Of a DNA stretch of 64,000 nt, positions 48,612 through 63,263 are shown in pieces; the stretch's first letter is position 1; every line of letters begins with the position of its first letter. Source of the stretch: Tritonibacter mobilis (GTDB taxonomy: Bacteria; Pseudomonadota; Alphaproteobacteria; Rhodobacterales; Rhodobacteraceae); assembly GCF_001681715.1 (NCBI RefSeq), contig NZ_LNWY01000009.1:1-64000 (forward strand), in the 5' to 3' direction. The notes beneath the pieces were generated by a model, which was not told where the DNA came from, made no database searches, and saw nothing but the letters and a program-made list of their open reading frames with translations. The position numbers were made by a program, and so were the translations under genes.

Positions 48612-49124
48612 TCACATGCGTGACAGCCGCTCTTCGTCATCCACCACTTCCAAAGAACCTATATTGTCAGTCCAGACCCACAGCACAATATTGAAGTCAG
48701 ATGATGACGCGCCCTTTGCAAAACTCTGGATCAGAAGCCCCGCGAACCGATCTGCTATGAGGGCGCTTGCCAAATCCTGTGTCGGCACAGGTTGGCCATC
48801 GAGCATCTTCATGCGCCATGCAGGGTCGGCAAGCATTGACGCTGTCACACCATACCGATCGAGCCTGTCCTGATCGCGGGTATCGAAAATAGGCCCAAGG
48901 TCGGCCTTGTAGGACACCAGGATAGTGGGTTGCAGGCTGCCTACCTGGTTGGCTTCTCTAAGAGCGGTCGCGGGATCCAGCGAGGTGTAGAGGGCAGGGG
49001 TGCCCTTGGCATTAAAGCGCCCTCCATAGAGTTCAGCGCCTAGTCCGGACAGAGGTTCACGCGCATAGACCGGGTTCAGGGCGCGGTAGAGCGGCCCTGA
49101 GTAGCGTCCATCTTTCAGCGGCAT
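48612..49124 (-). CDS. RES-domain toxin (NAD+ phosphorylase type)
   Basis: A 170-residue protein with the RES pattern: arginine in LYRALNP, GGRFNAKGTPALYTS (the glycine-rich RFN core) and a conserved Glu in TALREANQVG. RES toxins degrade NAD+. It shares one base with the stop of the antitoxin gene (TGATG), giving coupled translation. The pair sits right after the replicon and would stabilise the plasmid. Confidence 0.9.
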   Translation of the reverse strand: MPLKDGRYSGPLYRALNPVYAREPLSGLGAELYGGRFNAKGTPALYTSLDPATALREANQVGSLQPTILVSYKADLGPIFDTRDQDRLDRYGVTASMLADPAWRMKMLDGQPVPTQDLASALIADRFAGLLIQSFAKGASSSDFNIVLWVWTDNIGSLEVVDDEERLSRM

Positions 49125-49474
49125 CAGGCAAAGACGCCTGCATCGACCGCATCGATGTATTCCAGAACTTGCTGAGCTTTGCCTTCCTGAACCAGCTGCA
49201 TGGCTGTTCGGCCATCAAAGCCGGGCAGGGGCTCTGACCGGTACCATGCATAGGCCATCAGTTCCGAGCCGAAGCGGGGTTCGACTTTGTTCAGCACCTC
49301 TACCAATTCGCGCAGGCGGCGCTGCGTCTTGTCCGAACCGATGCGGGCTCGCCTCTGCAACGCGTCTTTGCCCAAGCCGACGGTCAATGCGATCTCTTCT
49401 GCTGATGTGCGTAGCACCGCGGCGATCTTCCGCGGTTCGAATTGCCCAGCTTCAGCAAAGCTCGTGATGTGCAT
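49124..49474 (-). CDS. Xre/MbcA-ParS-like antitoxin with DUF2384
   Basis: A 116-residue antitoxin: N-terminal helix-turn-helix (IAAVLRTSAEEIALTVGLGKDAL) and C-terminal DUF2384 domain (AYAWYRSEPLPGFDGRTAMQLVQEGKAQQVLEYI). ATG at 49474 is preceded by AGGAG with 9-bp spacing; an upstream longer start is less likely. A strong promoter lies just upstream with a palindrome, so autoregulation is expected. Confidence 0.88.
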   Translation of the reverse strand: MHITSFAEAGQFEPRKIAAVLRTSAEEIALTVGLGKDALQRRARIGSDKTQRRLRELVEVLNKVEPRFGSELMAYAWYRSEPLPGFDGRTAMQLVQEGKAQQVLEYIDAVDAGVFA

Positions 49475-49503
49475 GATCTGTGCTCCTACAGTGATACTGA
49501 CGG

Positions 49504-49532
49504 TATATAGCGGCAATATTGCTGAAATTCAA
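49504..49532 (-). promoter_or_regulatory. RES toxin-antitoxin promoter and operator
   Basis: On the minus strand TTGAAT (49532-49527), a 17-bp spacer and TATATA (49509-49504) form a good promoter. The palindrome GCAATATTGC (49513-49522) in the spacer is a likely antitoxin-binding site. Confidence 0.75.
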
Positions 49533-49822: not shown

Positions 49823-49852
49823 GGAAAGTGAAAGTGGACTTCGGGTTTTGTG
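49823..49852 (+). repeat. shared hairpin-type element, copy 1
   Basis: GAAAGTGAAAGTGGACTTCG with a following GGGTTTTGT is a divergent copy of the element found before other genes of this block (copies at 51400, 51896, 56713, 61035 and 62425). Confidence 0.45.
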
Positions 49853-49933
49853 ACTGACGGATGAGGGCCTTTGGGGTGCCTCGGACGGGTCCGGGCCGGG
49901 TTCCGGTCTGCCGTTCCTGATAAGGGCATTCCC

Positions 49934-50404
49934 ATGCAAATAGGTGTCTTGCGCGTCTTGCGCGCGACCGCTGCCTCCTGGTGGCGGCATAGAGAACTGC
50001 GCCGAACTGGCCAGACGGCGCTGGCACAGCAGCTCGAACGCCAGACCGTCCAGCGTGACCTCGGCTATCTCAGGCAGGCGGCGACAATGCCGGACGCGCA
50101 TGTGATCTGCGGGGAGGGTGGCACTTTCCTGCATCTCGGCTGGACCAACGTTTCGACTCTCACGCCGATCGAGTGCTTTCCGTTGGCCGCCCTGGCAGTC
50201 GCACGAGGGACGCCCCTCATCGATATCCGGCCCATCACCGATGTCATCGCCTTCGCGAACCTGCCGCAGGTGAGGCGGGACGGATCGGTCAACCCTGAGC
50301 ATTCGGGTGCCGGCAGGTCCGTTTCTCTGACCACCTACATCGACATGGTCGAAGAGCTCGGCGCGAGCATCACCAACGATCCACGGCCCTGTCGGTCAAC
50401 CTAG
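49934..50404 (+). CDS. hypothetical protein
   Basis: From ATG 49934 a 156-residue frame (MQIGVLRVLRATAASWW) runs to 50404 with no recognised family. The opposite strand also has a long frame, so coding strand and even coding status are unsure. It lies between copy 1 of the shared element and the ArdC gene, with the same direction as the block. Confidence 0.4.
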   Translation: MQIGVLRVLRATAASWWRHRELRRTGQTALAQQLERQTVQRDLGYLRQAATMPDAHVICGEGGTFLHLGWTNVSTLTPIECFPLAALAVARGTPLIDIRPITDVIAFANLPQVRRDGSVNPEHSGAGRSVSLTTYIDMVEELGASITNDPRPCRST

Positions 50405-50444
50405 TCGCCACTCCCTCTCATCAACACTCGAAAGGAGGCCAGCC

Positions 50445-51383
50445 ATGGCCCGATCCCGCACGCCCAAATTCGATGCCTCCGAGGTCATCACCAACGAAAT
50501 CATCCGCATCATCGAGCGCGGCGTCCTGCCCTGGCGCAAGCCCTGGACCATTGGCGGCAGCTCTCGTCCCCTGCGCGTGGGCGGAGAACCCTACCAGGGT
50601 GTGAACAACTTCCTGCTCACCATGCGAACGGTGATGGCGGGCCACAGCTCGCCCTTCTGGATGACGTTGCCGCAGGCCAATGCGTTGGACGCAAAGGTCC
50701 GCAAGGGCGAGAAATCCTCTGTCGTCGTCTATTACGGCCAAAGCCGGAAAGACGCGGGCGGCGAGGACGACCGCAGCGATGGCGATGATCGCTCCGAGGA
50801 AGCCCGCATCTTCCGCTTCCAGAAAGCCTACCGCGTGTTCAATGCCTGCCAGATCGATGGCCTGCCCGACAGTTTCTTCCCCGACCCGGAGCCCGCACCC
50901 GAGCATCCTCCGTCCGAGCCCATCCCGCACATGCAGGCGTTTTTCGACGCCATCGACATCACGACCGTCTTCACGGGGACGGAAGCCTACTATTTGCCAC
51001 CTGTAGACAAGGTGTTCATGCCATCCATTTCCAGGTTCGAGAACCCGCGGAACTTCTACGGGGTCTGGGCGCATGAGCTCGCCCATGCCACCAAGGCGCG
51101 CCATCGGCTGAACCGCGACTACGGCCTCTCGCGCTTCGGCAACACGGCCTATGCCCGCGAAGAGATCGTCGCCGAGCTGACCTCGGTGTTCCTTGGTCAG
51201 ACGCTCGGCTTTACGGCCCATACGCTCGAGATGAACGCGGCGTATCTCTACAATTGGCTGCGGGTTCTGCGCTCGGACAAGGGCGCCATCTTCAAACACG
51301 CCGCTGACGCGCAGCGCGCCTGCGACTACCTGATCGCACTGTCGGAGGCGGGCAGGGCATGGGAGGTCGACCAGGCCGCTTGA
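50445..51383 (+). CDS. ardC: ArdC-like antirestriction zinc metalloprotease
   Basis: A 312-residue protein with an N-terminal ssDNA-binding ArdC domain (DASEVITNEIIRIIERGVLPWRKPW, GVNNFLL) and a C-terminal zincin with WAHELAHATK near residue 208 and the distal Glu in EEIVAELTSVFLG. ArdC proteins protect incoming plasmid DNA from restriction during conjugation. Start ATG 50445 has AAAGGAGG. This gene opens the accessory block. Confidence 0.9.
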   Translation: MARSRTPKFDASEVITNEIIRIIERGVLPWRKPWTIGGSSRPLRVGGEPYQGVNNFLLTMRTVMAGHSSPFWMTLPQANALDAKVRKGEKSSVVVYYGQSRKDAGGEDDRSDGDDRSEEARIFRFQKAYRVFNACQIDGLPDSFFPDPEPAPEHPPSEPIPHMQAFFDAIDITTVFTGTEAYYLPPVDKVFMPSISRFENPRNFYGVWAHELAHATKARHRLNRDYGLSRFGNTAYAREEIVAELTSVFLGQTLGFTAHTLEMNAAYLYNWLRVLRSDKGAIFKHAADAQRACDYLIALSEAGRAWEVDQAA

Positions 51384-51399
51384 GGGGATGTGTGTCGGC

Positions 51400-51420
51400 A
51401 AAGGGAAAGCAGGCTTTGGG
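51400..51420 (+). repeat. shared hairpin-type element, copy 2
   Basis: The copy contains GGGAAAGCAGGCTTTGGG; GAAAGC pairs with GCTTT across AG. It ends 32 bp before the DUF3768 start. Confidence 0.55.
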
Positions 51421-51452
51421 AAGGGTGTTTCAACTTCACAGAGGAATGCCCC

Positions 51453-51842
51453 ATGACCAGTACCGCACAACCCCAGACAGACCGCCCGGACTCGAGTGTG
51501 ATCGCAGCGCAGAACGACGCGTTTCGCAAGCTCGCTTGCCTCGGGGTGCCGCCCGCGCAGCCCATACAGGGCCGCATGCATGTCACCCGCTCGATTATGG
51601 AGGCTGGTGACGGCTTCATGGCCGAGGCGGTGAAGGCCACGGGCATGTTCGAGACCTTCGAGCCCGAGAACGATCCCGAAGGATGGCATGATTTCGGGGC
51701 GGTCGAGGTCCGCGGCGAGACCGTGTTCTGGAAACTGGATTTGTACGAAGCGGATTCCGACTTCCGCTATGGCGCCGAGGCCCCGGACAATCCCGCCACC
51801 ACCATGCGCGTGCTGACCATCATGCTGGCGCGCGACTGGTAG
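51453..51842 (+). CDS. DUF3768 family protein
   Basis: A 129-residue protein with the DUF3768 pattern (IAAQNDAFRK, GWHDFGAVEVRGETVFWKLDLYE, TTMRVLTIMLARDW). Function unknown; the family is found on alphaproteobacterial plasmids and islands. ATG 51453 follows the shared element and a GAGG site. Confidence 0.85.
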   Translation: MTSTAQPQTDRPDSSVIAAQNDAFRKLACLGVPPAQPIQGRMHVTRSIMEAGDGFMAEAVKATGMFETFEPENDPEGWHDFGAVEVRGETVFWKLDLYEADSDFRYGAEAPDNPATTMRVLTIMLARDW

Positions 51843-51895
51843 GGGAGGGGACACCCCTCCTGACAGCCCAGGCGATGAAGGCCCGCTGACCCCTC

Positions 51896-51918
51896 AAAGG
51901 GAGAGTGGGCCTTTTGTT
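51896..51918 (+). repeat. shared hairpin-type element, copy 3
   Basis: AAAGGGAGAGTGGGCCTTTT can pair AAAGG with CCTTT. It ends 78 bp before the large ParB-like gene. Confidence 0.55.
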
Positions 51919-51996
51919 GTGGTGATCCCTGAAGACGGGGATTGGCCGCGCATCTGAATGCGCGGGCCGCTCCAAACCCACCGAAAAGGAAACGCC

Positions 51997-53979
51997 ATGA
52001 CCACAAGCTTCAAACCCGTCTCCGTCGCCATCGGCGATCTGGTCTCACATCCCGCCAATGTGCGCAGCAACTCGCCGGAAACCTATGATCCTGAGAACAT
52101 CGCCCATCTGAAGGCAAGCATCGCCGTTCTGGGTCTCCTGCAGCCGCTCATGGTCCAGAAGCTCGACGGCAAATATGCTGTCCTCGCCGGTGGCCGTCGG
52201 CATGCCGCGCTGAAGGAGCTGGTCGCGGACAGGGCCGCGAAAGGCTTCACGGCGAAGGCCAAGATCGACTGCCGTCTTGTGCCAGAGGATTGCGATGTCA
52301 CCACGGCCCTGTCGCTCGCTGAGAACATCACCCAGGCGCCGATGAATGCCATCGACGAGTTCGAGGCTTTCGCGCGGATGATGGAGGTCGACGACCAGAC
52401 GCCCGAGACGATCGCAAAGACCTTCGGCACCACGGTGGCGGCCGTGAAAGGCCGGTTGCGCTATGGCCTAATCCACCCCGACATCCGCGCCGCGGCCCGG
52501 GCCAAGACGATCACGCTCGACACGATGAAGGCCTTTGCGGAGCATCCGAGCCAGGAGGTGCAGCGCGAAGTCTTCGAGGCGCTCACCAAGGAAGATAGCT
52601 ACCTGCAGGCCTATACGGTCCGCCAGGCGCTCAAATCCCGCGGCGTGCAGGTCAGTGACGATATCGGGGCCTTCGTGCGCGCGGACTACGAGGCGCGGGG
52701 CGGCGCTGTCGCCGCTGACCTTCTGGAAGAGCATTCCGTGCTCGAAGACGCCGCGCTGGTCGAGACCATCCTGCTCGAGAAGCTCGGTGCCGCCGCCGAA
52801 GAGGCCCGCATAAAGCTGGGCTTTGCCTGGGCCGATGCCATGGTCCGCTATGATTACGCGACCATGGCCGACTACGGCCGCGTTTATCCCGGCCCGATCG
52901 AGCCTGATGAGGCTGCGCAAAAGCGCATCGATGAGATCACCGCCGAGCTTGAGAAACTGCAGCTCGAGATGGAGGATGAGGGGCTCGAGGACGGTGCCTA
53001 CAACGCGCTTTACGAGCGCGTGGACGCCTTGGAAGAGGAAGCCCGCGACCTGCAGGAGGCCTACAGCGCCGAGGACCTCGCGCGGTCTGGGGTAATCGCG
53101 TCCTGGTCGGGCGGGCAGGTGACCCTCCATGTTGGCCTCGTCCGCCCGGAAGACACCGTCAAAAAGGAGGGCGCGCGCGGCTCCTCGGCTAGCCCGACCG
53201 GGGAGGAGGCCCCAGACGCCGGCGAAATCACCTATCCGGCCTCACTGGCTGAGGACCTCAAGACCGAGCGAGCCATGGCGCTTGGGGCCGCGATGGCGCT
53301 GCATCCGGAAGCTACGCTCGATCTGACGCTCTTCAAGCTGGTGAGCGACGTTCTGGCCAGCGGCATGAGTGTCACGCAGGCGATCAAGATCGATGCCCGC
53401 AAGGAATACCGCAGCCATGCCAAGATGGACGAGATCGACGCAACCTCGCGCGAGCAGGTGGCGGCGGCGCATGAGGCGCTGGACCTCTCCTGGCTCGATG
53501 ACACCCGCGCGCCCGCCGATCAGTTCGCGGCGTTTCGCGCGCTGGAGGCAGGCGAAAAGGCCAAGCTCGTGGCCTATGCCACGGCCAGCACCACGCAGTC
53601 CTGCTTCGCGCGGGACCGCCAGCGCGACAGCCTGATGCATGCGTTCGAGATCGAGATCATGCCCGACATCCGCTCCCACTGGACGCCGAATGCGGCGCTC
53701 TTCAACCGCTTCAAGAAGGCTTGGCTCCTGAAGATCCTCGGCGAGGATCTGGGTCTCGCCCAGGAGGCGGTGACGCTGGCCTCGTCGAGCAAGAAGGAGA
53801 TCGTCGCCTTTTGTGACAAGCTCTTCGCCGAGCCCTTCGCCACGCTCACGGACGCGCAGCGCGCTGCCGTGGCCGCCTGGTGCCCGCCCATGATGCAGAC
53901 AGCCGGTGTCGCCTGTGATGAGGCGGAGCCCGCGGCGGAAACCCCGGAGCCTGACGGCGACATCGCGCAAGCGGCCTGA
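51997..53979 (+). CDS. large ParB-like nuclease-domain protein
   Basis: A 660-residue protein with an N-terminal ParB/Srx fold (LVSHPANVRSNSPE, LLQPLMVQKLDGKYAVLAGGRRHAAL, SLAENITQAPMNAIDEFEAFARM), a KorB-like helix-turn-helix (ETIAKTFGTTVAAVKGRLRYG) and a long acidic, coiled-coil-rich C terminus (residues 320-365). Such proteins recur beside DUF736 and ArdC on plasmids; function is unknown, perhaps a nucleoid-associated or early-conjugation role. Confidence 0.88.
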   Translation: MTTSFKPVSVAIGDLVSHPANVRSNSPETYDPENIAHLKASIAVLGLLQPLMVQKLDGKYAVLAGGRRHAALKELVADRAAKGFTAKAKIDCRLVPEDCDVTTALSLAENITQAPMNAIDEFEAFARMMEVDDQTPETIAKTFGTTVAAVKGRLRYGLIHPDIRAAARAKTITLDTMKAFAEHPSQEVQREVFEALTKEDSYLQAYTVRQALKSRGVQVSDDIGAFVRADYEARGGAVAADLLEEHSVLEDAALVETILLEKLGAAAEEARIKLGFAWADAMVRYDYATMADYGRVYPGPIEPDEAAQKRIDEITAELEKLQLEMEDEGLEDGAYNALYERVDALEEEARDLQEAYSAEDLARSGVIASWSGGQVTLHVGLVRPEDTVKKEGARGSSASPTGEEAPDAGEITYPASLAEDLKTERAMALGAAMALHPEATLDLTLFKLVSDVLASGMSVTQAIKIDARKEYRSHAKMDEIDATSREQVAAAHEALDLSWLDDTRAPADQFAAFRALEAGEKAKLVAYATASTTQSCFARDRQRDSLMHAFEIEIMPDIRSHWTPNAALFNRFKKAWLLKILGEDLGLAQEAVTLASSSKKEIVAFCDKLFAEPFATLTDAQRAAVAAWCPPMMQTAGVACDEAEPAAETPEPDGDIAQAA

Positions 53980-54055
53980 GTCCTCACGCGACCCGCGCGT
54001 GGACCATGCCGCCCGCGCGGGTCGACCCTTCCAAACCGAACAGAAAGACATCCCC

Positions 54056-54649
54056 ATGGCTATTCTCAAGTTCTCTGCCTCCGCTGTTGCGGCGCAAATC
54101 GCACATGCGCGTGCCTGCAAGACCTTCCTGCCCAACTGGAACGGGCCCGTGGACAGGCCGGCCCTGATCCTCATCGTCGGCAATGGTGTGCATCTGCGCT
54201 CAAACGGCATCGATGGCACGACCACCCGTATCGTTACCACCGAGCAGGCCGATCCCTCCTTCGCCTTCGCCGACGGCATGAACCCGTTTCGGGACACCGA
54301 CTGGATGGCGCAGCGCCGCATGGCGTTTCGCGATCTGACCGGCCAGTTTTACACCGACATCCTGGATGACGTGCAGGTGCTCATCGACCGGGGGCGAGGG
54401 GCCATCCGGCTCGCCACCGATGGCCACAGCATCCGCGTCTTCGTGCGCCGGGCCTCGGACTATCTCATCGGCGGGACCTACGAAGTGCCCTCGGGCCTCG
54501 GTGGCACCTTCAGGGTCATCCTCAAGGATGCCTGCGACACCTTTGCGATCGTGCAGAACTGTGGCAATTGCGAGGATTTCGACGCCATGCAGCCCTACCG
54601 CGTGCCGCTCGATGCGCTGATGGAAATCGATGACCGGAGGGCGGCGTGA
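54056..54649 (+). CDS. DUF3085-like plasmid protein
   Basis: A 197-residue protein starting MAILKFSASAVAAQI, with GNGVHLRSNGIDG near residue 45 and a GMNPFRDTDWM motif near residue 80; this resembles DUF3085 proteins. A Cys-containing NCGNCEDFD lies near the end. Function unknown. It shares a base with the start of the next gene (TGATG). Confidence 0.75.
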   Translation: MAILKFSASAVAAQIAHARACKTFLPNWNGPVDRPALILIVGNGVHLRSNGIDGTTTRIVTTEQADPSFAFADGMNPFRDTDWMAQRRMAFRDLTGQFYTDILDDVQVLIDRGRGAIRLATDGHSIRVFVRRASDYLIGGTYEVPSGLGGTFRVILKDACDTFAIVQNCGNCEDFDAMQPYRVPLDALMEIDDRRAA

Positions 54650-55302
54650 TGGGTTGGCTCTTCTACACCGACGGCCGCGTCCAGACCTACGCGGATGAGA
54701 AAGCGGAGATTGCTCGGCTGTGCACCTTCGAGGGCGAAAGGCGCAAGACGGAACTGGTCAAAGCCTGCAAGGTGGGTTCGACTTGGTACGCGGCGGCAAA
54801 GGTCACAAATATCGACGGCACCCCTGTCGAAGACACGACCTATGTCACCGATGCGGATGGCTCCATCACTTTCGCCGCCGTATTCCTTACCCGATATGAT
54901 GACGGCTGCTGGGGCTACAAGGACATGGAGGAAAGCGCGGGACCGGTCGAATCCCGCGCGCCACTGAGCCTATTGGCCCTGCTGTCCGAGCTGAAAGACC
55001 CAGACAGCTATGCTCATGCCTGGCGCCAGCGCTGCCAGGACTGGGCTGCGATCCCGGACTACGAGGAAGGCGACAAGATCAAGCTCGCCACCCCTGTGAC
55101 GCTCACCGATGGCAGTACCTGCCAGATTGTCACCGCGACCCACTACAGGCGTGGGCGGCAAAAGCGCCGCTGCTACCGCATCGAGGAAACTGGTGGGCTC
55201 GTACGCCTGTCGAAGGCCTCGCTTGCGGGCTCGGAGCTGCTCAGCTCCACGAAAGGTGCGGCTAGCCCGGTGCTGGCGGAGTTCCTGGCGGGGCGAAATT
55301 AG
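54649..55302 (+). CDS. DUF6927-like plasmid protein
   Basis: A 217-residue protein beginning MGWLFYTDGRVQTYADEKAEI, with VGSTWYAAAKV and FLTRYDDGCWGYKDM, the pattern of DUF6927. Function unknown. The preferred start ATG 54649 overlaps the previous stop; a GTG lies 3 bp earlier. It is co-translated with the DUF3085-like gene. Confidence 0.8.
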   Translation: MGWLFYTDGRVQTYADEKAEIARLCTFEGERRKTELVKACKVGSTWYAAAKVTNIDGTPVEDTTYVTDADGSITFAAVFLTRYDDGCWGYKDMEESAGPVESRAPLSLLALLSELKDPDSYAHAWRQRCQDWAAIPDYEEGDKIKLATPVTLTDGSTCQIVTATHYRRGRQKRRCYRIEETGGLVRLSKASLAGSELLSSTKGAASPVLAEFLAGRN

Positions 55303-55359
55303 GTCCTGCGCCGGACGGTTCATCGACCTGCCCGGCGACAGCAGATGCTGCGGCTTGTC

Positions 55360-55388
55360 TTGACAAGGCAATGCAAATGCATTACCTA
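55360..55388 (+). promoter_or_regulatory. PrlF/YhaV promoter with operator
   Basis: TTGACA (55360-55365), 17-bp spacer and TACCTA (55383-55388) give a good promoter. A perfect inverted repeat (AATGCA 55370-55375, TGCATT 55378-55383) in the spacer is a likely antitoxin operator. Confidence 0.75.
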
Positions 55389-55426
55389 TCGCGGGCAGCA
55401 AAGCCCCTTTTCTTCAGGAGACTGCC

Positions 55427-55753
55427 ATGACAGCCCTCGCACAAGATGTCTCGAAGCTCACGGATCGGTATCAGACGACCGTGCCGGCGGGTGTGCGCAA
55501 ACAGCTCAAGCTGGGCAAGGGCGACCAGATTCGTTACTGCACCGAGCCGAGTGGCAGGGTCTATATCGAGCCCGTGCGCAGCGACGAGGAAGATCCCGTG
55601 CTCGGAGCCTTTCTCGATTTTGTCGAGGCCGATATCAAGGCGCATCCGGACCGCATTCGGGCTTTCGATGGGGCTTTGCATGACCGTCTTGCAGCACTGG
55701 TCGGAGACGTTGATGTCGATCTCGATGCGCCGCTATCGCTCGAGGATGAATGA
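55427..55753 (+). CDS. prlF: PrlF family antitoxin
   Basis: A 108-residue AbrB/SpoVT-type antitoxin (KLTDRYQTTVPAGVRKQLKLGKGDQIRY near residue 10) with an acidic C terminus. It would neutralise YhaV and repress its promoter. Its stop overlaps the toxin start by four bases (ATGA). Confidence 0.9.
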   Translation: MTALAQDVSKLTDRYQTTVPAGVRKQLKLGKGDQIRYCTEPSGRVYIEPVRSDEEDPVLGAFLDFVEADIKAHPDRIRAFDGALHDRLAALVGDVDVDLDAPLSLEDE

Positions 55754-56268
55754 GCGGCGATAGCGTGCCCGCCCAAGCGCCCCTTGTCGTGAATGGATGG
55801 TCGATTTATGCGCACCCACTCTTTCTGGACCAGCTCGAAGGGCTGGTCGAGGAGGTAGAGGCGCGTAAGGCTCGCGATCCCAAGACCTGGCACAAGAAAA
55901 ACCCGACGAAACGGCTGGCCGCCATCTTCAAGCTGGTCACCGAGGCCATACCTGCAGATCCGGGTGCCGCCGCCTTCCGGCAAGGCGGCACACTCGGCGA
56001 TCACCGCAAGCACTGGTTCCGGGCGAAATTCTTCCAGCAGTATCGGCTGTTCTACCGGTTCAACAGCGATGCGAAGGTCATCGTGGTGGCATGGGTGAAC
56101 GACGACAAGACCCTGCGCGCCTATGGCAGCAAGACGGATGCCTATGCGACGTTCAAAGGGATGCTGGAAGATGGCAATCCACCTGACAATTTCGACGCGC
56201 TCTTGAAAGAAGCAGCGGCGGCGAACAAGCGGTTCGAGACGTCCCTTGAAGCGGCGCCCGATCGGTAA
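55750..56268 (+). CDS. yhaV: YhaV family RNase toxin
   Basis: A 172-residue toxin with the YhaV pattern (VNGWSIYAHPLFLDQLEGL, HWFRAKFFQQYRLFYRFNSDAKVIVVAWVNDDKTLRAYGSKTDAY split over residues 100-140). It is a ribosome-dependent mRNA endonuclease in the known family. It forms a pair with the preceding antitoxin. Confidence 0.92.
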   Translation: MSGDSVPAQAPLVVNGWSIYAHPLFLDQLEGLVEEVEARKARDPKTWHKKNPTKRLAAIFKLVTEAIPADPGAAAFRQGGTLGDHRKHWFRAKFFQQYRLFYRFNSDAKVIVVAWVNDDKTLRAYGSKTDAYATFKGMLEDGNPPDNFDALLKEAAAANKRFETSLEAAPDR

Positions 56269-56362
56269 GTGGGCCAGCTTGCTGTGACCCTTTGGCATTA
56301 TCGTTTACGACGCCCCGCTGGTAGATGTAGCATCGGCTGATAATACGGTCGGAGAAAGCACA

Positions 56363-56527
56363 ATGATTGAGGCGGAAAAGGATAGGCAGCACCTCGGGCT
56401 AGAGGAGCAATGCGCGCCTGACCTGACGGGGCACCGTTTCCCAATTGCTGTGCACATTGCAGACATGCCCGATGACCTCGGCAAGCTGCTGGATATCGGG
56501 CTCGAGGAGCATTTCCGTGGCGGCTGA
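56363..56527 (+). CDS. small protein of unknown function, 54 residues
   Basis: ATG 56363 opens a 54-residue acidic frame (MIEAEKDRQHLGLEEQC) that overlaps the start of the next small frame by 11 bp. No family is recognised. It may be a partner of the following antitoxin-like protein. Confidence 0.4.
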   Translation: MIEAEKDRQHLGLEEQCAPDLTGHRFPIAVHIADMPDDLGKLLDIGLEEHFRGG

Positions 56528-56669
56528 TGTCAATTCGTATGACGCGTGGTTTCGCGCGAAGGTGCAGGCCGCGCTGGAGGAGGAATGCACGGGAACATCT
56601 CAAGTTCAGGTGATGCAGGCCGCACAGGCATTGATTGATGCGAAACGGGAGGTCGAACCCAAGTCCTGA
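56517..56669 (+). CDS. stability-determinant/RelB-like small antitoxin
   Basis: GTG 56517 opens a 50-residue frame with the pattern YDAWFRAKVQAALEE followed by VMQAAQALIDAKR, as seen in short stability-determinant antitoxins partnered with RelE-type toxins. No RelE toxin follows, so it may be an orphan antitoxin. Confidence 0.55.
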   Translation: MAADVNSYDAWFRAKVQAALEEECTGTSQVQVMQAAQALIDAKREVEPKS

Positions 56670-56712
56670 CCAAGCCTTGGAGGTCAGCGCAGTCTGACCC
56701 CCGTCACCCTGA

Positions 56713-56733
56713 AAAGCGAAAGTGGGCTTTTGT
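56713..56733 (+). repeat. shared hairpin-type element, copy 4
   Basis: The copy contains AAAGCGAAAGTGGGCTTTTG; AAAGC pairs with GCTTT. It ends 38 bp before the methyltransferase-helicase gene. Confidence 0.6.
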
Positions 56734-56771
56734 CCTTTGGAACTCAGACCCTGATCCAAAGGAAAATCCCC

Positions 56772-59700
56772 ATGTCCAAACCCAAACTGGCAAACCCGGC
56801 TCTCGCAATCTCCGAAGCCGATCTCGCCTCTGCGCTAGCGCTAATCGGCGCGGAGTTCGACCACCAACCCCTGCGCAGCTCAGCGCTCGCGCGCATCATG
56901 CGCGAGACGTTTCATGGCAGCGATGCCGGCGGTGCCTGGGACTGGCGCATGGCCTATGACCTGATGCAGGCCGCGGCCGTCCAGGTGCTGCTGCGTGGGG
57001 CCGACGCGGCAGGTGACATCGCTGCTGCAAAGCTGCTTGCCTCACGGCTGCTGACGGAAACCCGCCGGTCAGAGCAGCAGATCCGGCTGCAGCAGTTTTC
57101 CACGCCAATGCCATTTTCCGCCTTGGCTGTGCGGGCGGCTGCGGTCCGCAAGGGCGAGACCGTTCTGGAGCCCTCGGCTGGCACCGGTGCCCTGGCAGTT
57201 TTCGCTGCCCGGGCCGGTGCCACCCTTGTGCTCAACGAGATCGACCCCTTTCGCCAGAGCCTTTTGCGCGCGGTCTTTGGCGGCGATGTGACGGGCCATG
57301 ACGGTGAGCATATCGACGATCTGCTGCAGACGCCGGTTCTACCCGACGTCGTGGTGATGAACCCGCCCTTTGCCTCCTCGGTCGATCGCTCGCGAGACAA
57401 GCACATCGCTGCCAAACATCTCATTGCGGCCGCGAAGCGCCTGGCACCCGGTGGGCGGCTGGTGGCGATCATGCCGCCGGGGTTCAGCCCCGAACGTGAT
57501 GGCGCGCATTGGTCGCGCGCCTGCGGTCTCCTGACGCCGCGACTGGCGTTGACGATACCGGGGCAGGTCTACCGCAAGCTCGGCACCTCGGTGGAAACCC
57601 AACTGATGGTCTTCGACAAGGTGCAGGAGGACGGCGAGATGATCCGCGCCGCGGTTCAGGATCTGGAGGAAGCCCTTCCTTTTGTTGACACCATGGCCGC
57701 AAACCGGCCTGAGACGCGCCCAGTCCAACGGGCGGCGACAAACCCTCATGCGCGATCGGTCGGTCCACTACTTGTCACGCGCAAGCGCCCAGTTGCCAAA
57801 GTTGCGGCGTCCAACGCTCAGACCAACGCCGCCATACCGCTCACTTTCACAAGCCTTGAGGCCCCGCGCGACAACACGCCCGTCTCGGACATCTATGCGC
57901 GCTACCGTCCGCAGCGGATCGAGATCGCGGGTGCGCAAGAACATCCCACGCCGCTCGTCGAAAGCATCGCCATGGCCTCGGTTGCCCCGCCCATGCCCTC
58001 AAACACGGGCAGTGATGACTTGCGTCTGCCCGCCAGGCTGATCGAGGAGGGACATCTCTCAGAGGCACAGCTGGAAACCATCATCATGGCGCATGATGCC
58101 CATGGGCGTGATTTGCCAGGCCGGTTCACGATCGATGACGACCAGACAAAGCTGACGCGTGCCGATGATGACCCGTATGCGTGTCACTATCGCCTCGGGT
58201 ATTTCCTCGGCGACGGCACCGGTTGTGGCAAGGGCCGCGAATGCGCGGGGCTCATTCTCGTGAACTGGCTTTTCGGGCGCAGGAAGGCGATCTGGGTCTC
58301 CAAATCCGCCACGCTTATCGAGGACGCGATCCGCGACTGGACCGATCTCGGCGGCTCGCCTGCCGACATTCAGCCACTTTCCAAATGGAAACCCGATCAG
58401 CCCGTCCCGATGGGCGACGGAATCCTCTTCGTCACCTACGCCACGCTGCGGTCCGCGGGCAAATGCGGTACCACGCGACTGAGCCAGGTTCTCGACTGGA
58501 TGGGTGAAGACTTCGAAGGCGTCCTCGCATTTGATGAAGCCCATGCCATGCAGAATGCGGCAGGGTCCGAGCAGGGCAGGGGGGTCAAACCCTCCCAGCA
58601 GGGCCTTGCGGGCCTGCGGCTGCAACTGGCCGCACCGCGTGCCCGCGTCTTCTACATCTCGGCCACGGGTGCCACGAGCGTGCACAACCTGGCCTATGCC
58701 GCGCGGCTGGGGCTCTGGGGGCAGGGCCCCGAATACCCCTTCCCGAGCCGTGAGAGTTTCGTCTCGGCAATGGAAGCCGGCGGCGTGGCTGCCATGGAGG
58801 TGGTCGCGCGCGATCTCAAGACGCTTGGCCTCTACACGGCCCGCGCCCTCAGTTTTGATGGGGTGGAGTATGACGTACTCGGACACGCGCTCACCCCGGC
58901 CCAGATCGAGATCTACGATGCATACGCGGGTGCGTTTCGGACGATCCACCACAATCTCGAGGCGGCGCTGACGGCGACCGGTGTCAACGATGCCTCGGGG
59001 GAGACCAACGCCTCCGCCGCACGTGCCTCGGCCAAGTCCCGTTTTGAGAGCACGAAGCAGCGCTTCTTCAATCATCTGCTGATGGGCATGAAGGCACCGA
59101 CCATCATCCGCGCGATCGAGGATGATCTGGCAACGGGCCACGCGTGCGTCATCCAGGTGGTTTCGACCGGCGAGAGCCTGCTGAAACGTCGGCTTGAAAC
59201 GATGGACGCGGAAGACGAGCTCGTCGAGGGTGCCTTGACGCCGCGCGACTATGTTCTGGGCTACCTGGAACAGGCCTTCCCGATCCATGCGCAAAAGCTG
59301 GTCGAGATCGACGGTAACATGGTGGCGGAACCCTTGCGGGATGAGACCGGCGCGCTCGTTGTCTCGCGCGAGGCGCTCGCCCTGCGCGATGCGGCCATGA
59401 TGGAGTTGATGACGCTGGCGCCGATTCCCTCGGCGCTCGACCAGATCCTCTGGGCCTTTGGCGACGAGGCAGTGGCCGAAGTGACAGGGCGGTCTATCCG
59501 GCCCCTCAAGGCCGAGGATGGCCATCTCTTCATCGAAAAGCGCGCCGCCAGCAGCAATTCCTCCGAGACCCAGGCCTTCATGGATGGCGAGAAGGATATC
59601 CTGATCTTCTCGGATGCGGGTGGCACGGGCCGGTCCTACCATGCGGCCCAAATGGCGAAGAACCAGAAACGGCGGCGGCACTATCTTCTGGAGCCCGGCT

Positions 59701-61034
59701 GGCGCGCCGATGCGGCCATCCAGGGGCTCGGGCGCACGCATCGCTCGGCGCAGGTCAGCGCGCCCTTCTTCCGGGTCTGCACCTCGGATGTGCATGGCGA
59801 AAAGCGTTTCACCTCGACGATCGCCAAGCGCCTCGACCAGCTAGGGGCCTTGACCAAGGGTCAGCGCGAGACCGGCTCGCAAGGCATGTTCCGCGAGGAG
59901 GATAATCTGGAAAGCCCGATCGCACGGGCAGCTTTGCGTGGGTATTTCGCCGATCTAGCCGCCGGGCGCGCCGAGGCGATGAGCTTTGAGAGCTTCACCG
60001 ACTGGACGGCCCTGCGGCTGATCGACAAGGACGGGGTACTGCTCGAGGAGCTGCCGCCGATCCAGCGGTTTCTGAACCGGGTGCTTGCCCTTCCCATCCA
60101 CATGCAGAACGCACTCTTTGCGGAGTTCATGGCGAGAATATCCGATCAGACGGAACGGGCGCGCGCGGCGGGCACGCTCGATCTCGGCGTCGAAACCCTG
60201 CGCGGCGAAAACATCGAACAGGTCTCCACCGAAGACCTCTGGACCTGCCCGAAATCCGGTGCGGTCACGCGGATCATCGGGCTCGAGGTGACGGACCCGG
60301 TCCGTGTGCTGTCGGCGGATGGCGCCCTGTCGCGCAACCCCGACAAGCTGCCGATGGTCAATCGCGCCTCCGGCCGCGCGGCGCTCATCTCGGCGCGGCC
60401 AATGCAGATGTATGACGAAGATATCGTCACCCTCATGCGCAAGGCCGTGCGGCCCAACGGGTCGAGCTATCTCGAGGAGGTGCGTTTCGCGTCCTCGGCC
60501 TGGGAAGAGATCGGCAAGCCCGAGTTCTCACGGCTTTGGGATGCCGAGGCTGCGTCCCTGCCGAATACCACCACGACCAAGCTCTACCTGCTGACCGGGC
60601 TGCTGTTGCCGATCTGGAAGGACATTCCGACCACGAATGAACGCATCTTCAGGGTCACGCCTGACGGGGCAACCGCGATGATTGGGCGCACGCTGAGCGA
60701 AGAAGGGGCGGCCGCGCTGCGCGCCCGCTTCCTCGTCTCCAACCCGGAAACACCGCAAGAGATGCTGACCGCCGCCCTCGGCACCACCGCACCGGTCGAT
60801 CTGGGCCGGGGTCTCACCCTGACCCGTCGCCGTGTCGCAGGCGAGATACGCCTCGAGCTGGGCGGTGCGGATCTGGGTATGATCGAAAGCCTCAAAGCGC
60901 TTGGCTGTTTCACCGAGATCATCGCCTTCCAGTTGCGGGTGTTCCTCCCGCATGGGGACGGTGTCGACACGGTCAGCATTCTGGCCCGGATCGTTGGGCA
61001 GGGAACCACCAAGGCGGCAGAACAAGCCGCCTGA
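56772..61034 (+). CDS. methyltransferase-strawberry notch-like helicase fusion
   Basis: A 1420-residue protein, the largest in the window. The N-terminal half holds an N6-adenine-type DNA methyltransferase (SAM site LEPSAGTGALAVFAARAG near residue 140; catalytic NPPF in VVMNPPFASS near residue 195). The C-terminal half is a strawberry-notch-type SF2 ATPase with Walker A (GDGTGCGKGRECAG near residue 482), the DEAH box (LAFDEAHAM near 583) and motif VI (GLGRTHRSAQ near 987). Such fusions occur on plasmids and conjugative elements next to ArdC and DUF736 and are thought to guard incoming DNA. ATG 56772 fits the domain start. Confidence 0.92.
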   Translation: MSKPKLANPALAISEADLASALALIGAEFDHQPLRSSALARIMRETFHGSDAGGAWDWRMAYDLMQAAAVQVLLRGADAAGDIAAAKLLASRLLTETRRSEQQIRLQQFSTPMPFSALAVRAAAVRKGETVLEPSAGTGALAVFAARAGATLVLNEIDPFRQSLLRAVFGGDVTGHDGEHIDDLLQTPVLPDVVVMNPPFASSVDRSRDKHIAAKHLIAAAKRLAPGGRLVAIMPPGFSPERDGAHWSRACGLLTPRLALTIPGQVYRKLGTSVETQLMVFDKVQEDGEMIRAAVQDLEEALPFVDTMAANRPETRPVQRAATNPHARSVGPLLVTRKRPVAKVAASNAQTNAAIPLTFTSLEAPRDNTPVSDIYARYRPQRIEIAGAQEHPTPLVESIAMASVAPPMPSNTGSDDLRLPARLIEEGHLSEAQLETIIMAHDAHGRDLPGRFTIDDDQTKLTRADDDPYACHYRLGYFLGDGTGCGKGRECAGLILVNWLFGRRKAIWVSKSATLIEDAIRDWTDLGGSPADIQPLSKWKPDQPVPMGDGILFVTYATLRSAGKCGTTRLSQVLDWMGEDFEGVLAFDEAHAMQNAAGSEQGRGVKPSQQGLAGLRLQLAAPRARVFYISATGATSVHNLAYAARLGLWGQGPEYPFPSRESFVSAMEAGGVAAMEVVARDLKTLGLYTARALSFDGVEYDVLGHALTPAQIEIYDAYAGAFRTIHHNLEAALTATGVNDASGETNASAARASAKSRFESTKQRFFNHLLMGMKAPTIIRAIEDDLATGHACVIQVVSTGESLLKRRLETMDAEDELVEGALTPRDYVLGYLEQAFPIHAQKLVEIDGNMVAEPLRDETGALVVSREALALRDAAMMELMTLAPIPSALDQILWAFGDEAVAEVTGRSIRPLKAEDGHLFIEKRAASSNSSETQAFMDGEKDILIFSDAGGTGRSYHAAQMAKNQKRRRHYLLEPGWRADAAIQGLGRTHRSAQVSAPFFRVCTSDVHGEKRFTSTIAKRLDQLGALTKGQRETGSQGMFREEDNLESPIARAALRGYFADLAAGRAEAMSFESFTDWTALRLIDKDGVLLEELPPIQRFLNRVLALPIHMQNALFAEFMARISDQTERARAAGTLDLGVETLRGENIEQVSTEDLWTCPKSGAVTRIIGLEVTDPVRVLSADGALSRNPDKLPMVNRASGRAALISARPMQMYDEDIVTLMRKAVRPNGSSYLEEVRFASSAWEEIGKPEFSRLWDAEAASLPNTTTTKLYLLTGLLLPIWKDIPTTNERIFRVTPDGATAMIGRTLSEEGAAALRARFLVSNPETPQEMLTAALGTTAPVDLGRGLTLTRRRVAGEIRLELGGADLGMIESLKALGCFTEIIAFQLRVFLPHGDGVDTVSILARIVGQGTTKAAEQAA

Positions 61035-61055
61035 AAAGCCAAAGCGGGCTTTGGG
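61035..61055 (+). repeat. shared hairpin-type element, copy 5
   Basis: The copy contains AAAGCCAAAGCGGGCTTTGG; AAAGCC pairs perfectly with GGCTTT. It begins right after the helicase stop and ends 100 bp before the DUF6878 gene. Confidence 0.6.
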
Positions 61056-61155
61056 TCGGGCGTCGCGGATCGGGGTTTGGCCGGTCTGCGCTTTCCGGGC
61101 CCGCGCTGACCAATGCGACGCCTGGCCCCCCAACTTCTGACAAGAGGACAGACCC

Positions 61156-61542
61156 ATGACCAATCCCCAGATCGACTATGCCGCAATGGCGGCTCAGTGG
61201 CGCGCCGAGCGCGAAACCACCCTGAAAGCAACCCGAGCGGAACTGATCGCGCAATTGCGCGCGCTTGGCATCAACGAGGTCACCGCCGAATACGAAGGCT
61301 ATGGCGACTCTGGCAATGTCGAGGACGTGAATGTGCAGCCTGCGGAGGTCAAACTGCCGGAAGCGCTTGTCACCGCCGTGGGCGATTTCGCCTGGTCACT
61401 CGCCTATCACCATCATCCGGGGTTCGAGAACAACGAGGGCGGCTACGGCACGCTGACCTGGGACATTGCAGCAGACAGCATCACCCTCGATCACGCCGAC
61501 CGCTATGTCGAATGCTCGCACAGCTATGACGAGGGGCTTTGA
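61156..61542 (+). CDS. DUF6878 family plasmid protein
   Basis: A 128-residue acidic protein with the DUF6878 pattern (IDYAAMAAQWRAERE, ITAEYEGYGDSGNVEDV, HHHPGFENNEGGYGTLTWDI). Function unknown. ATG 61156 has GAGG upstream. It is followed one base later by the DUF6915 gene. Confidence 0.85.
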   Translation: MTNPQIDYAAMAAQWRAERETTLKATRAELIAQLRALGINEVTAEYEGYGDSGNVEDVNVQPAEVKLPEALVTAVGDFAWSLAYHHHPGFENNEGGYGTLTWDIAADSITLDHADRYVECSHSYDEGL

Positions 61543-61543
61543 T

Positions 61544-62005
61544 ATGGCGCATCCGCTTCATCATGCCGAAAGCTCGGCCCGAAAATTCGGCGGGGTGCCG
61601 TCTGACTATCAGGCCATCCACGATTGGTTCGATGCCTCGAAAGAGCACCTGGCGCTCTTCACGCACAGGGCGCTTCGCCACCATACCCAAGGTCTGTTCG
61701 ATGCTGAACGTGTCTTCGGTCTGACCCTGACCAATAGCGCAGGTCGGGACATCCCCGTGCGCTGGATCGGCGAGCAGCATATCCGTGAAGACTGCCAAGG
61801 CCGTATCCCGAGTATGGCGGACTGGCTGCGACGCATACAGCCTGAGCCATGGATGGCCAATGGCCATATCGAGCAGCACCTCAGCGGGGAGCCCTGCGGT
61901 GATCCAAGGGTTGCCTGGGCCTCCGAGGTCGCCGCCGGACGAACGGTTCTTGGCCTGAAAGATTGGATGGCGGCGCGCGCGACGCAAGCCACGCAAAGCG
62001 CCTGA
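61544..62005 (+). CDS. DUF6915-like plasmid protein
   Basis: A 153-residue protein (MAHPLHHAESSARKFGG...YQAIHDWFDASKEH, HRALRHHTQGLFDAERVFG, GEQHIREDCQGRIPSMADWL) rich in His; it resembles DUF6915. Function unknown. It begins one base after the DUF6878 stop and is likely co-translated. Confidence 0.85.
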   Translation: MAHPLHHAESSARKFGGVPSDYQAIHDWFDASKEHLALFTHRALRHHTQGLFDAERVFGLTLTNSAGRDIPVRWIGEQHIREDCQGRIPSMADWLRRIQPEPWMANGHIEQHLSGEPCGDPRVAWASEVAAGRTVLGLKDWMAARATQATQSA

Positions 62006-62105
62006 CAGCTCTCGGTCGTTTGCCCAACGAATGCTGCGCGTAAGCCCTGTTGGACGACCGGGCTTCTTGCGTCGTTTCCCCACTATTGTTCTTGAGGAGG
62101 AGTGC

Positions 62106-62408
62106 ATGACACTCGAAGATATCAAAGCGGCCGTCGATGCCGGGCAGACCGTGCACTGGGCCAATACCGGCTACGTTGTCCACAAGGACCGGCTGGGTCA
62201 GTACCTGATCACCTATGTGCTGAACGGCAGCTGCATCGGCCTGACCGACAGGGGCGGGCAAAGGTTGAACGGGGAAGAGGCGGAGTTCTTCCTCGCGCGA
62301 TCGGAGGACGGCGCGGAAAATCCTGGCAGCCAATCAAGACCACACGGGCAGGGGAGGGGCGTAGCACCCGGAGGCGCGGGGGCACATCCACTCGGACGGC
62401 AGCGCTGA
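62106..62408 (+). CDS. small hypothetical plasmid protein
   Basis: A 100-residue protein whose first 65 residues (MTLEDIKAAVDAGQTVHWANTG...LNGEEAEFFLAR) look like a small conserved plasmid domain. The Gly/Arg-rich tail is out of character and may reflect a late frame change. ATG 62106 has GAGGAG upstream. Confidence 0.7.
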   Translation: MTLEDIKAAVDAGQTVHWANTGYVVHKDRLGQYLITYVLNGSCIGLTDRGGQRLNGEEAEFFLARSEDGAENPGSQSRPHGQGRGVAPGGAGAHPLGRQR

Positions 62409-62424
62409 GCCGGGGGCGGGGCAT

Positions 62425-62445
62425 AAAGGGAAAGCAAGCTTTCTG
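62425..62445 (+). repeat. shared hairpin-type element, copy 6
   Basis: AAAGGGAAAGCAAGCTTTCTG is present in this copy; GAAAGC and GCTTTC pair perfectly across AA. It ends 89 bp before the DUF736 gene. Confidence 0.6.
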
Positions 62446-62534: not shown

Positions 62535-63263
62535 ATGTTCGCAGGAACCCTCACCCGCAACGTCGAGACCGCAGCCGCCGAATACACCGGCATGATCCAT
62601 TCGACGCGCTTTGACATCGCCATCCAGCTCGAGGCACGGGCCAAGATGTCCGCGCGCAGCCCGGATTTTGACGTGACGGCCGTCAACAAATCAGGCCGCA
62701 AGGTGCGCATCGGCACGGCCTGGAACGAGACCGGCAATACCAGCGGTAACCCCTACATCTCGATGCAGATCGATGTCGGCTTGGGTCCGTTCCGGGTCAA
62801 CGCGGTGCAGACGAACGAGGCGCGCGCGGCCCAGAGCGGCGCGTTCGAGATCATCCCGCTGGTCTCGAACGGCCTGATGAAATCCGGCTCGATCTCGGGC
62901 GAGCTCACCGCCATGGACGCCGACAACGCCTTCACCGGCTACATCGCCAACATGATGTTCGATCTGGAGTTCATGCTGATCGAAAACAGCTACAAGACCG
63001 AGGAGACCCACCCCGACTACCGGATCGAGGTCAGCTCGCCCCGGGGCACACCGATCCGCGTCGGCTCGGCCTGGATGGCCAAGAGCAGCCGCACGGGCAA
63101 TGACTACCTGTCGCTTCTGATCAACACGCCCGATGGCGACCTGCGCGTGAACGCCGTGCAGAACGAAGAGCAGCGCGGTGGCCAGACTTTCTCGATCATT
63201 CCGTTCATCGACAGCGGTGATCAAGCGCAAGACGCGGGCGCGGGGCTGTCGCTGGTTGCCTGA
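62535..63263 (+). CDS. tandem DUF736 protein
   Basis: A 242-residue protein with two copies of the DUF736-type unit: DFDVTAVNKSGRKVRIGTAWN...LGPFRVNAVQTNEA (residues 40-100) and DYRIEVSSPRGTPIRVGSAW...GDLRVNAVQNEEQ (residues 155-218). DUF736 proteins are usually single-unit; this is a duplication. Function unknown, but they are conserved neighbours of conjugative and ArdC genes. ATG 62535 is 89 bp after the shared element. Confidence 0.88.
   Translation: MFAGTLTRNVETAAAEYTGMIHSTRFDIAIQLEARAKMSARSPDFDVTAVNKSGRKVRIGTAWNETGNTSGNPYISMQIDVGLGPFRVNAVQTNEARAAQSGAFEIIPLVSNGLMKSGSISGELTAMDADNAFTGYIANMMFDLEFMLIENSYKTEETHPDYRIEVSSPRGTPIRVGSAWMAKSSRTGNDYLSLLINTPDGDLRVNAVQNEEQRGGQTFSIIPFIDSGDQAQDAGAGLSLVA

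Follow-up and report, generated by a model that had tools for sequence, protein, structure and literature searches.

A recurrent leader element before six genes of a putative plasmid establishment block in Tritonibacter mobilis, with a candidate RNA family in distant relatives

An 18-nucleotide (nt) element recurs six times in the 64,000-nt stretch of Tritonibacter mobilis DNA analysed here (contig NZ_LNWY01000009.1, positions 1 to 64,000; hereafter the window), always on the + strand and ahead of genes of a block that includes an anti-restriction gene (ArdC). The repeats are real. Among close relatives 201 of 207 orthologous leaders of the six genes keep the element; for seven other genes of the block the figure is 2 of 225. 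Both fractions measure conservation and not chance, since related leaders are not independent. The probability that the six repeats form the 5' box of a leader family, read as RNA, that marks an establishment (anti-restriction) regulon in alphaproteobacterial plasmids and related elements is in our estimate about one half. If this leader family holds, the block would be a jointly controlled gene set.

The six elements and their conservation

The element reads AAAGNN-AAAG-YRGGCTTT or a near variant and extends beyond the 13-mer of the preliminary description of this DNA. That description had placed a related element before six genes, on the + strand, at a spacing of 32-100; the genes and the strand are confirmed, and the spacing from element end to start codon is corrected to 35-103 nt. 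The six elements are:

49825..49842, + strand: element 1, AAAGTGAAAGTGGACTTC, ends 91 nt before the g1 start codon (49934)
51400..51417, + strand: element 2, AAAGGGAAAGCAGGCTTT, ends 35 nt before the DUF3768 start codon (51453)
51896..51913, + strand: element 3, AAAGGGAGAGTGGGCCTT, ends 83 nt before the ParB-like start codon (51997)
56713..56730, + strand: element 4, AAAGCGAAAGTGGGCTTT, ends 41 nt before the start codon of the methyltransferase-helicase gene (MTH; 56772)
61035..61052, + strand: element 5, AAAGCCAAAGCGGGCTTT, abuts the MTH stop codon and ends 103 nt before the DUF6878 start (61156)
62425..62442, + strand: element 6, AAAGGGAAAGCAAGCTTT, ends 92 nt before the DUF736 start codon (62535)

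The listed block genes all lie on one strand:

49934..50404, + strand: g1, 156 amino acids (aa), without a Pfam, NCBIfam or PHROGs family
50445..51383, + strand: ArdC anti-restriction gene (ArdcN and MPTase-PolyVal), without an element of its own
51453..51842, + strand: DUF3768 gene, by domain-family match
51997..53979, + strand: ParB-like gene (ParB_N, HTH_ParB), by domain-family match
56772..61034, + strand: MTH gene, with AAA_34 and strawberry-notch helicase C domains
61156..61542, + strand: DUF6878 gene, by domain-family match
62535..63263, + strand: DUF736 gene, by domain-family match

The methyltransferase assigned to the N-terminus of MTH is based on the RefSeq names of relatives and on weak NCBIfam matches under the cut-off.

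Conservation was measured in 13 plasmid regions and in the best 80 of 580 genome contigs encoding an MTH relative. A leader was defined as the 160 nt upstream of an orthologue that is aligned at its N-terminus and 60% or more identical, and an element was called at no more than four mismatches. By gene, the element precedes 22 of 24 orthologues of g1, 30 of 31 of DUF3768, 36 of 37 of ParB, 37 of 39 of MTH and all orthologues of DUF6878 (34/34) and DUF736 (42/42), while ArdC leaders have it in one of 30 cases. As controls on the same 207 leaders, the reversed pattern was called in 9 and the minus strand in 43, 37 of the latter being leaders of DUF736, whose element is nearly palindromic. The distance to the start codon is nearly fixed for each gene, with medians of 92 nt (g1), 35 (DUF3768), 83 (ParB), 42 (MTH), 103 (DUF6878) and 91 (DUF736). 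Across relatives the conserved sequence approximates RARGNN-ARAG-NNGGCYTT. In the window's own group the box of each of the six genes has two R-A-R-G motifs, six bases apart on the coding strand, and lies 35-108 nt before the start codon; these motifs are retained, and element positions 5 and 6 are variable.

As a raw count the element is weak evidence for enrichment: the bare consensus with up to three mismatches has 22 matches in the window against 14.5 +/- 3.9 expected, and 3 of 100 shuffles reach as many. We also built matrices from the relatives' elements of five genes at a time and scored both strands of the 64-kb window for the gene left out. The left-out element ranked among the window's top six in all six cases, and the elements scored 19.9-27.8 bits compared with 11.4-13.7 for the best other window site. 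When up to two mismatches are allowed, the 18-mer matches 17 sites of the 4.7-Mb genome, six of which are the window elements, and the reversed pattern matches three. A covariance model of the element (29 columns), whose training set comes partly from the window's own elements, returned these six as the genome's top six matches (E 5e-5 to 6e-4). The preliminary description had made its proposal depend on the motif not being equally dense elsewhere; on this point the bare consensus lies weakly above chance, and the leave-one-out matrices and the genome model separate the six clearly.

The next three genome matches of the element model lie on contig C2 before DUF736, DUF6878 and MTH (E 0.007, 0.23 and 2.4). 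This contig carries a second copy of the block on its minus strand (L196, G000:C2:50000-68542), with proteins 86-98% identical, a ParB gene cut by the contig end, and elements before MTH, DUF6878 and DUF736. The MTH element of this copy is another allele: the MTH leader (56713-56771 in the window) and its orthologues have two element alleles, AAAGCGAAAGCGGGCTTT and AAAGTGTAGAGCGGGCTTT, with an otherwise similar 3' flank, and this genome has one of each. A PF03432 relaxase match is found at C2:48422, on the same strand as the C2 block copy.

The search was extended beyond the window with a covariance model trained on window-type elements (R2). Of 196 genomes sampled from the order, 35 have elements by this model at E <=0.01, and 27 of these have at least two. 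The earlier suggestion of a shared regulatory element of the block is in this respect supported: the element is specific to gene and strand, keeps near-constant distances, and has related leaders in other alphaproteobacterial blocks, where they precede genes of the same types.

Leaders of distant relatives

The distant set includes 43 loci with MTH proteins of about 43-58% identity, mostly from Alphaproteobacteria with five from Nostoc or Nostocales; one locus (L013) was picked on ParB alone. Leaders of up to 125 nt were taken upstream of 113 genes, of which 19 are toprim genes. A purine box was found before many of the ParB-like, MTH, ArdC and DUF932-type genes, often in the same six-base register (RAGKN-AGAG). 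The sphingomonad box deviates, e.g. AGAGGGGAGGGGGCC.

A group of 21 leaders sharing one hairpin, termed type A, was picked by eye from the distant and earlier leaders. In these the purine box is followed by a strongly covarying hairpin whose 3' end falls in the Shine-Dalgarno sequence. Their alignment has 18 pairs, 11 of them changed on both sides, with 95.2% of the alignment cells paired against 86.8% after shuffling, and none of 500 shuffles attains any of the measures. The loop contains AGAGG or AGAGT in 18 of the 21 leaders and AAAGG in two. A GGAG Shine-Dalgarno sequence is present in 20, its first two G residues forming the two outermost pairs (with C41-C42). The type A leaders are a candidate new RNA family. 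The mostly MTH-associated type B leaders of distant plasmids have no clear structure, with four weak pairs, one of them changed on both sides, in 24 aligned sequences.

The covariance model R1 was built from the type A alignment, with no window-type sequence in training. Over 94 sources it gave 34 best matches (E <=0.0028), of which 21 are its own training leaders. Among the other 13, eight run up to the ATG of ParB-like or ArdC genes, and five to open reading frames (ORFs) of 36-133 aa that match nothing in the reference set. At E <=0.01, R1 matched 27 of 385 genomes of the class and 33 of 398 genomes of the phylum, an unstated share of which lie outside the class, and all 33 belong to that class. 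The 12 loci retrieved from the class search have 17 complete R1 matches, all ending at an ATG that opens a frame, with three frames cut by the locus end (33-48 aa). By sequence these frames look like ParB-like, ArdC and DUF932-type genes; Pfam, applied to five of them, assigned one to ParB_N and two to ArdC, and the two without a family resemble by eye other genes annotated as DUF932.

Single type A leaders were seen in other contexts as well. In L174 (184-1503, minus strand), a single 440-aa frame combining ParB_N and a TrbI conjugation domain directly follows such a leader. Type A-like leaders in L075 (5724-5823) and L066 (7135-7222), with R1 E-values of 0.0008 and 0.0027, precede two similar ORFs of 105 and 97 aa (MAKP-DYK-TLYPAHK), which are possibly a further establishment gene.

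The window elements probably belong to this distant leader family, as several sequence comparisons suggest. With filters off, R1 has 24 matches in the 13.7-kb block, and the leaders or elements of ParB, MTH, DUF3768 and g1 are at ranks 1, 2, 5 and 7; the ParB leader is best (10.5 bits, E 0.3) and MTH second (9.9 bits, E 0.41), neither being significant alone. In the opposite direction, R2 applied to the window and the 43 distant loci (E <=10) recovered the six elements and 22 further matches, 11 of which precede block genes while the other 11 were not placed. The 11 matches before block genes lie before MTH, ParB, ArdC or DUF3768 in three intermediate relatives (L051, L053 and L062; best E 0.004) and before MTH or ParB in two sphingomonads (L072 and L004; E 0.6-5). 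The best evidence for the link comes from mixed loci: L001, L033 and L041, all from Rhodobacterales, hold both a type A leader (E 1.6e-10, 4e-7 and 1e-7, respectively) and window-type elements. The type A leader of L033, located before an ArdC-like gene, has an intermediate form, since it starts with AAAGGGAGAG like the window ParB leader and continues into the type A hairpin. Two Nostoc leaders (L079 and L080) resemble the element; their start codons are uncertain.

Hairpin, strand and level of action

According to the preliminary description, a hairpin is kept at the elements, with a hint of compensatory change. This was not borne out by 47 aligned elements (44 distinct, from all six positions), in which 74.1% of the cells of the AAAG/CTTT stem pair and two cells are changed on both sides. 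For each of five measures, between 455 and 499 of 500 sets of shuffled partners match or exceed the stem, and a one-column shift of its 3' side still pairs 73.6% of the cells, at a higher covariation score than the stem register. RNAalifold predicted no pair on the aligned elements. The stem is without covariation and without a predicted pair; therefore, the conserved thing is the sequence. In isolation, the 18-mers of ParB, MTH and DUF6878 have better folds than their shuffled versions, which is not the case for those of g1, DUF3768 and DUF736.

A separate hairpin was predicted downstream of element 4:

56733..56763, + strand: MTH leader hairpin, TCCTTTGGA...TCCAAAGGA, RNAalifold consensus of 31 distinct leaders

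Its 3' arm contains a Shine-Dalgarno-like AAAGGA, and as an inverted repeat it folds about equally on both strands. An anti-Shine-Dalgarno switch, in which the 3' half of the element would pair with the gene's own Shine-Dalgarno region, was also considered and rejected as a general rule, the cognate pairs ranking 516th of 720 permutations.

The conserved fold of the leaders was compared between strands with RNA parameters. The z-scores for mRNA and template strand are -7.6 vs -0.4 for ParB, -9.0 vs -2.9 for DUF736 and -1.7 vs 0.2 for DUF6878, while the g1, MTH and DUF3768 leaders are about equal on both strands. For the MTH leader the template energy is slightly lower with RNA parameters; with DNA parameters the template z-score is larger but the mRNA energy is lower. 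A clear advantage of the template strand was seen for none of the window leaders. In type A leaders, with structures predicted without GU, 14 GU cells were counted against 4 AC cells, as expected for folding of the mRNA strand. The block has two sigma-70-like pairs (2.8 +/- 1.8 expected), none at an element. Element 5 directly follows the MTH stop codon, and an mRNA signal is therefore the more natural reading there than an independent promoter. A signal in the mRNA has moderate support, with type A the stronger case and the window the weaker, and the evidence speaks against a promoter on incoming single-stranded DNA.

Among other readings, the one that survives best takes the R-A-R-G pair as a double-stranded DNA operator, the site of a plasmid or host repressor or activator. 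The window group does conserve primary sequence and not pairing, with strand and distance nearly fixed, and such a regulator has been described for the EGeRS2 establishment genes of Bacillus plasmid p576 in the sections of PMC8708921 that deal with it. No promoter-like pair lies at an element, however, element 5 adjoins the MTH stop codon, and the covarying hairpin of the distant type A leaders shows another AGAG in its loop. A six-base direct repeat also poorly suits the usual helix-turn-helix spacing. We consider an operator somewhat unlikely, while a serious candidate.

A weak terminator, attenuator or transcript-processing site between cistrons is improbable. Its appeal comes from the location of five of the six elements 0-53 nt past the stop codon of an upstream + strand ORF, with short T-runs 3' of some. 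The local stems are weak, however, and terminator-like sites in the block are below expectation (5 vs 9.5 +/- 3.2), none of them at an element.

Still less credit goes to the single-stranded-DNA promoter (Frpo type) suggested in the preliminary description, where the incoming strand would fold at the element and host RNA polymerase initiate. The block does contain a leading-region-type anti-restriction gene and has its listed genes on one strand, and Frpo promoters govern such genes in F-like plasmids, as outlined in the pertinent part of PMC11541004. This proposal is not supported here: the elements are without a -35/-10 pair, and the non-covarying stem of 4-5 pairs would be too small for the two boxes. 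The reading needs a template-strand fold, which no leader clearly prefers under RNA parameters, and transcription that began beyond a type A hairpin would produce no leader, since this hairpin extends into the Shine-Dalgarno sequence. A PF03432 relaxase was not found on the 73.6-kb contig (73,619 bases), the two matches of the genome being on C1 and C2, nor was an oriT. In relative L001 the only two IncP-like nic sequences lie within annotated genes, and both have the orientation opposite to the one needed.

Least probable of all is that the six are functionless remnants of a leader duplication. A common origin by copying of a single leader along with its gene is conceivable, but relatives retain R-A-R-G next to variable positions 5 and 6, and the leaders of the other seven block genes are almost free of the element (2/225). 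An RfaH/ops-type antitermination site was likewise rejected, as the genome has only one NusG-domain gene (on C15) and no paralogue.

Under the preferred reading as an RNA leader, the window and the distant groups would be one family. The box and the loop would be bound as RNA by a putative trans-acting factor, either host- or plasmid-borne, and its binding together with the hairpin, whose base in distant type A leaders takes up part of the Shine-Dalgarno sequence, would set the translation of all these genes at once. As an outcome, the products would appear in due time once the plasmid has entered and be kept low afterwards. A broader and more tentative form, less likely than not, is an RNA regulon for plasmid invasion: a single factor would recognise R-A-R-G in the leaders of anti-restriction and establishment mRNAs across the conjugative elements of Alphaproteobacteria and time the translation of these mRNAs, as a post-transcriptional counterpart to the single-strand promoters of F-like plasmids.

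Several results weigh against the RNA leader family. The R1 matches at the four window leaders (5.9-10.5 bits, E 0.3-3.4) are not significant singly, the one at g1 ends short of its start codon, DUF6878 and DUF736 are absent from the 24 block matches, and the genome-wide R1 search returned no match at E <=1 with 150 of 1503 candidates scored. Of 94 distant leaders, 30 score 6 bits or more with a window-type matrix, compared with 13 for reversed and 8.9 for shuffled controls, and none of the 19 toprim leaders does so; purine richness therefore explains part of the likeness. A regular expression for the distant box, applied to intergenic upstream sequence on the + strand, has 15 sites against 10 reversed and 5-6 for two scrambles, and the box alone is therefore weak evidence. 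To these are added the unstructured type B leaders, the window's own short stem without covariation, and the 3' half of the element, which pairs with its own Shine-Dalgarno region no better than with those of other genes. Finally, the window leaders have 13 GU versus 10 AC cells overall, and g1 is opposite in sign (1 vs 7).

Other features were noted in the window and its relatives. GAAC-N7-GAAC occurs upstream of the block or MTH in L001 (14751-15099), L007 (8767-8955) and L008 (upstream of 1450); we take it to resemble the alphaproteobacterial LexA box, with SOS control as a possibility. Two toxin-antitoxin-like pairs are present in the window: a RES/Xre-type pair between repABC and the block (48612-49516, minus strand), whose matches stay under the NCBIfam cut-offs, and, within the block itself, a PrlF/YhaV-like pair (55427-56268), in which the PrlF antitoxin is above the cut-off and YhaV is named so only in relative L001. 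Positions 291-34142 form a metal/cytochrome part, with a DsbD-like protein, two heavy-metal P-type ATPases, CcmF, a cytochrome c, a histidine kinase and a multicopper oxidase.

Comparison with known systems

In our view, little is settled about how plasmid establishment genes are controlled other than in F-like and pLS20-like plasmids. A leader that recurs before ArdC, ParB-like and MTH genes in several alphaproteobacterial orders would serve as a tag for finding establishment genes, one that takes in the uncharacterised g1, DUF3768, DUF6878 and DUF736. The element also offers a defined sequence whose mutation can probe post-transcriptional control of plasmid entry.

EGeRS1 of the Bacillus plasmid pLS20 comprises related sequences just upstream of the likely ribosome-binding sites of several establishment operons, including ardC. 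In the relevant sections of PMC8708921, EGeRS1 is 420-750 bp in size with a predicted structure, the one tested had no constitutive promoter, and the authors describe the mechanism as unknown and a single-stranded-DNA promoter as highly unlikely. The likeness consists of a shared sequence before several establishment genes in an ardC-bearing block. It is a likeness of description, and the present element differs as an 18-nt box in leaders of about 60-125 nt from Alphaproteobacteria. EGeRS2 of p576 is similarly one regulatory sequence common to several establishment operons, but according to the same sections it is a strong promoter under a ribbon-helix-helix repressor, whereas no promoter pattern is seen at the elements here. 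By analogy with both, and from the presence of ArdC, the block may be taken as establishment genes, and a single related sequence precedes several of its members, as in EGeRS-type systems.

Frpo, as portrayed in the part of PMC11541004 devoted to it, forms a duplex that bears -35 and -10 boxes and occurs in more than one copy before leading-region genes. Several copies before such genes are the likeness of Frpo/ssi to the present case, and the elements differ in having neither box. Among candidate RNAs, the STAXI motif lies near SSB, antirestriction and integrase genes, and the proteobacterial radC motif comes from the same study (PMC2864571, in its entries on the two motifs). Both differ from the present case in that no Rfam family matched the scanned elements or leaders: none reached the gathering threshold at the leaders of the 17 and 6 loci scanned, and at E <=10 none was seen at the block elements or at two type A leaders in L005 (5000-9000). 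The open-access literature, searched by titles and abstract openings, yielded no description of these leaders. The known kind to which they would belong is that of establishment-gene regulatory sequences; what appears to be new is a shared leader of alphaproteobacterial establishment genes, with a candidate RNA family in its distant branch.

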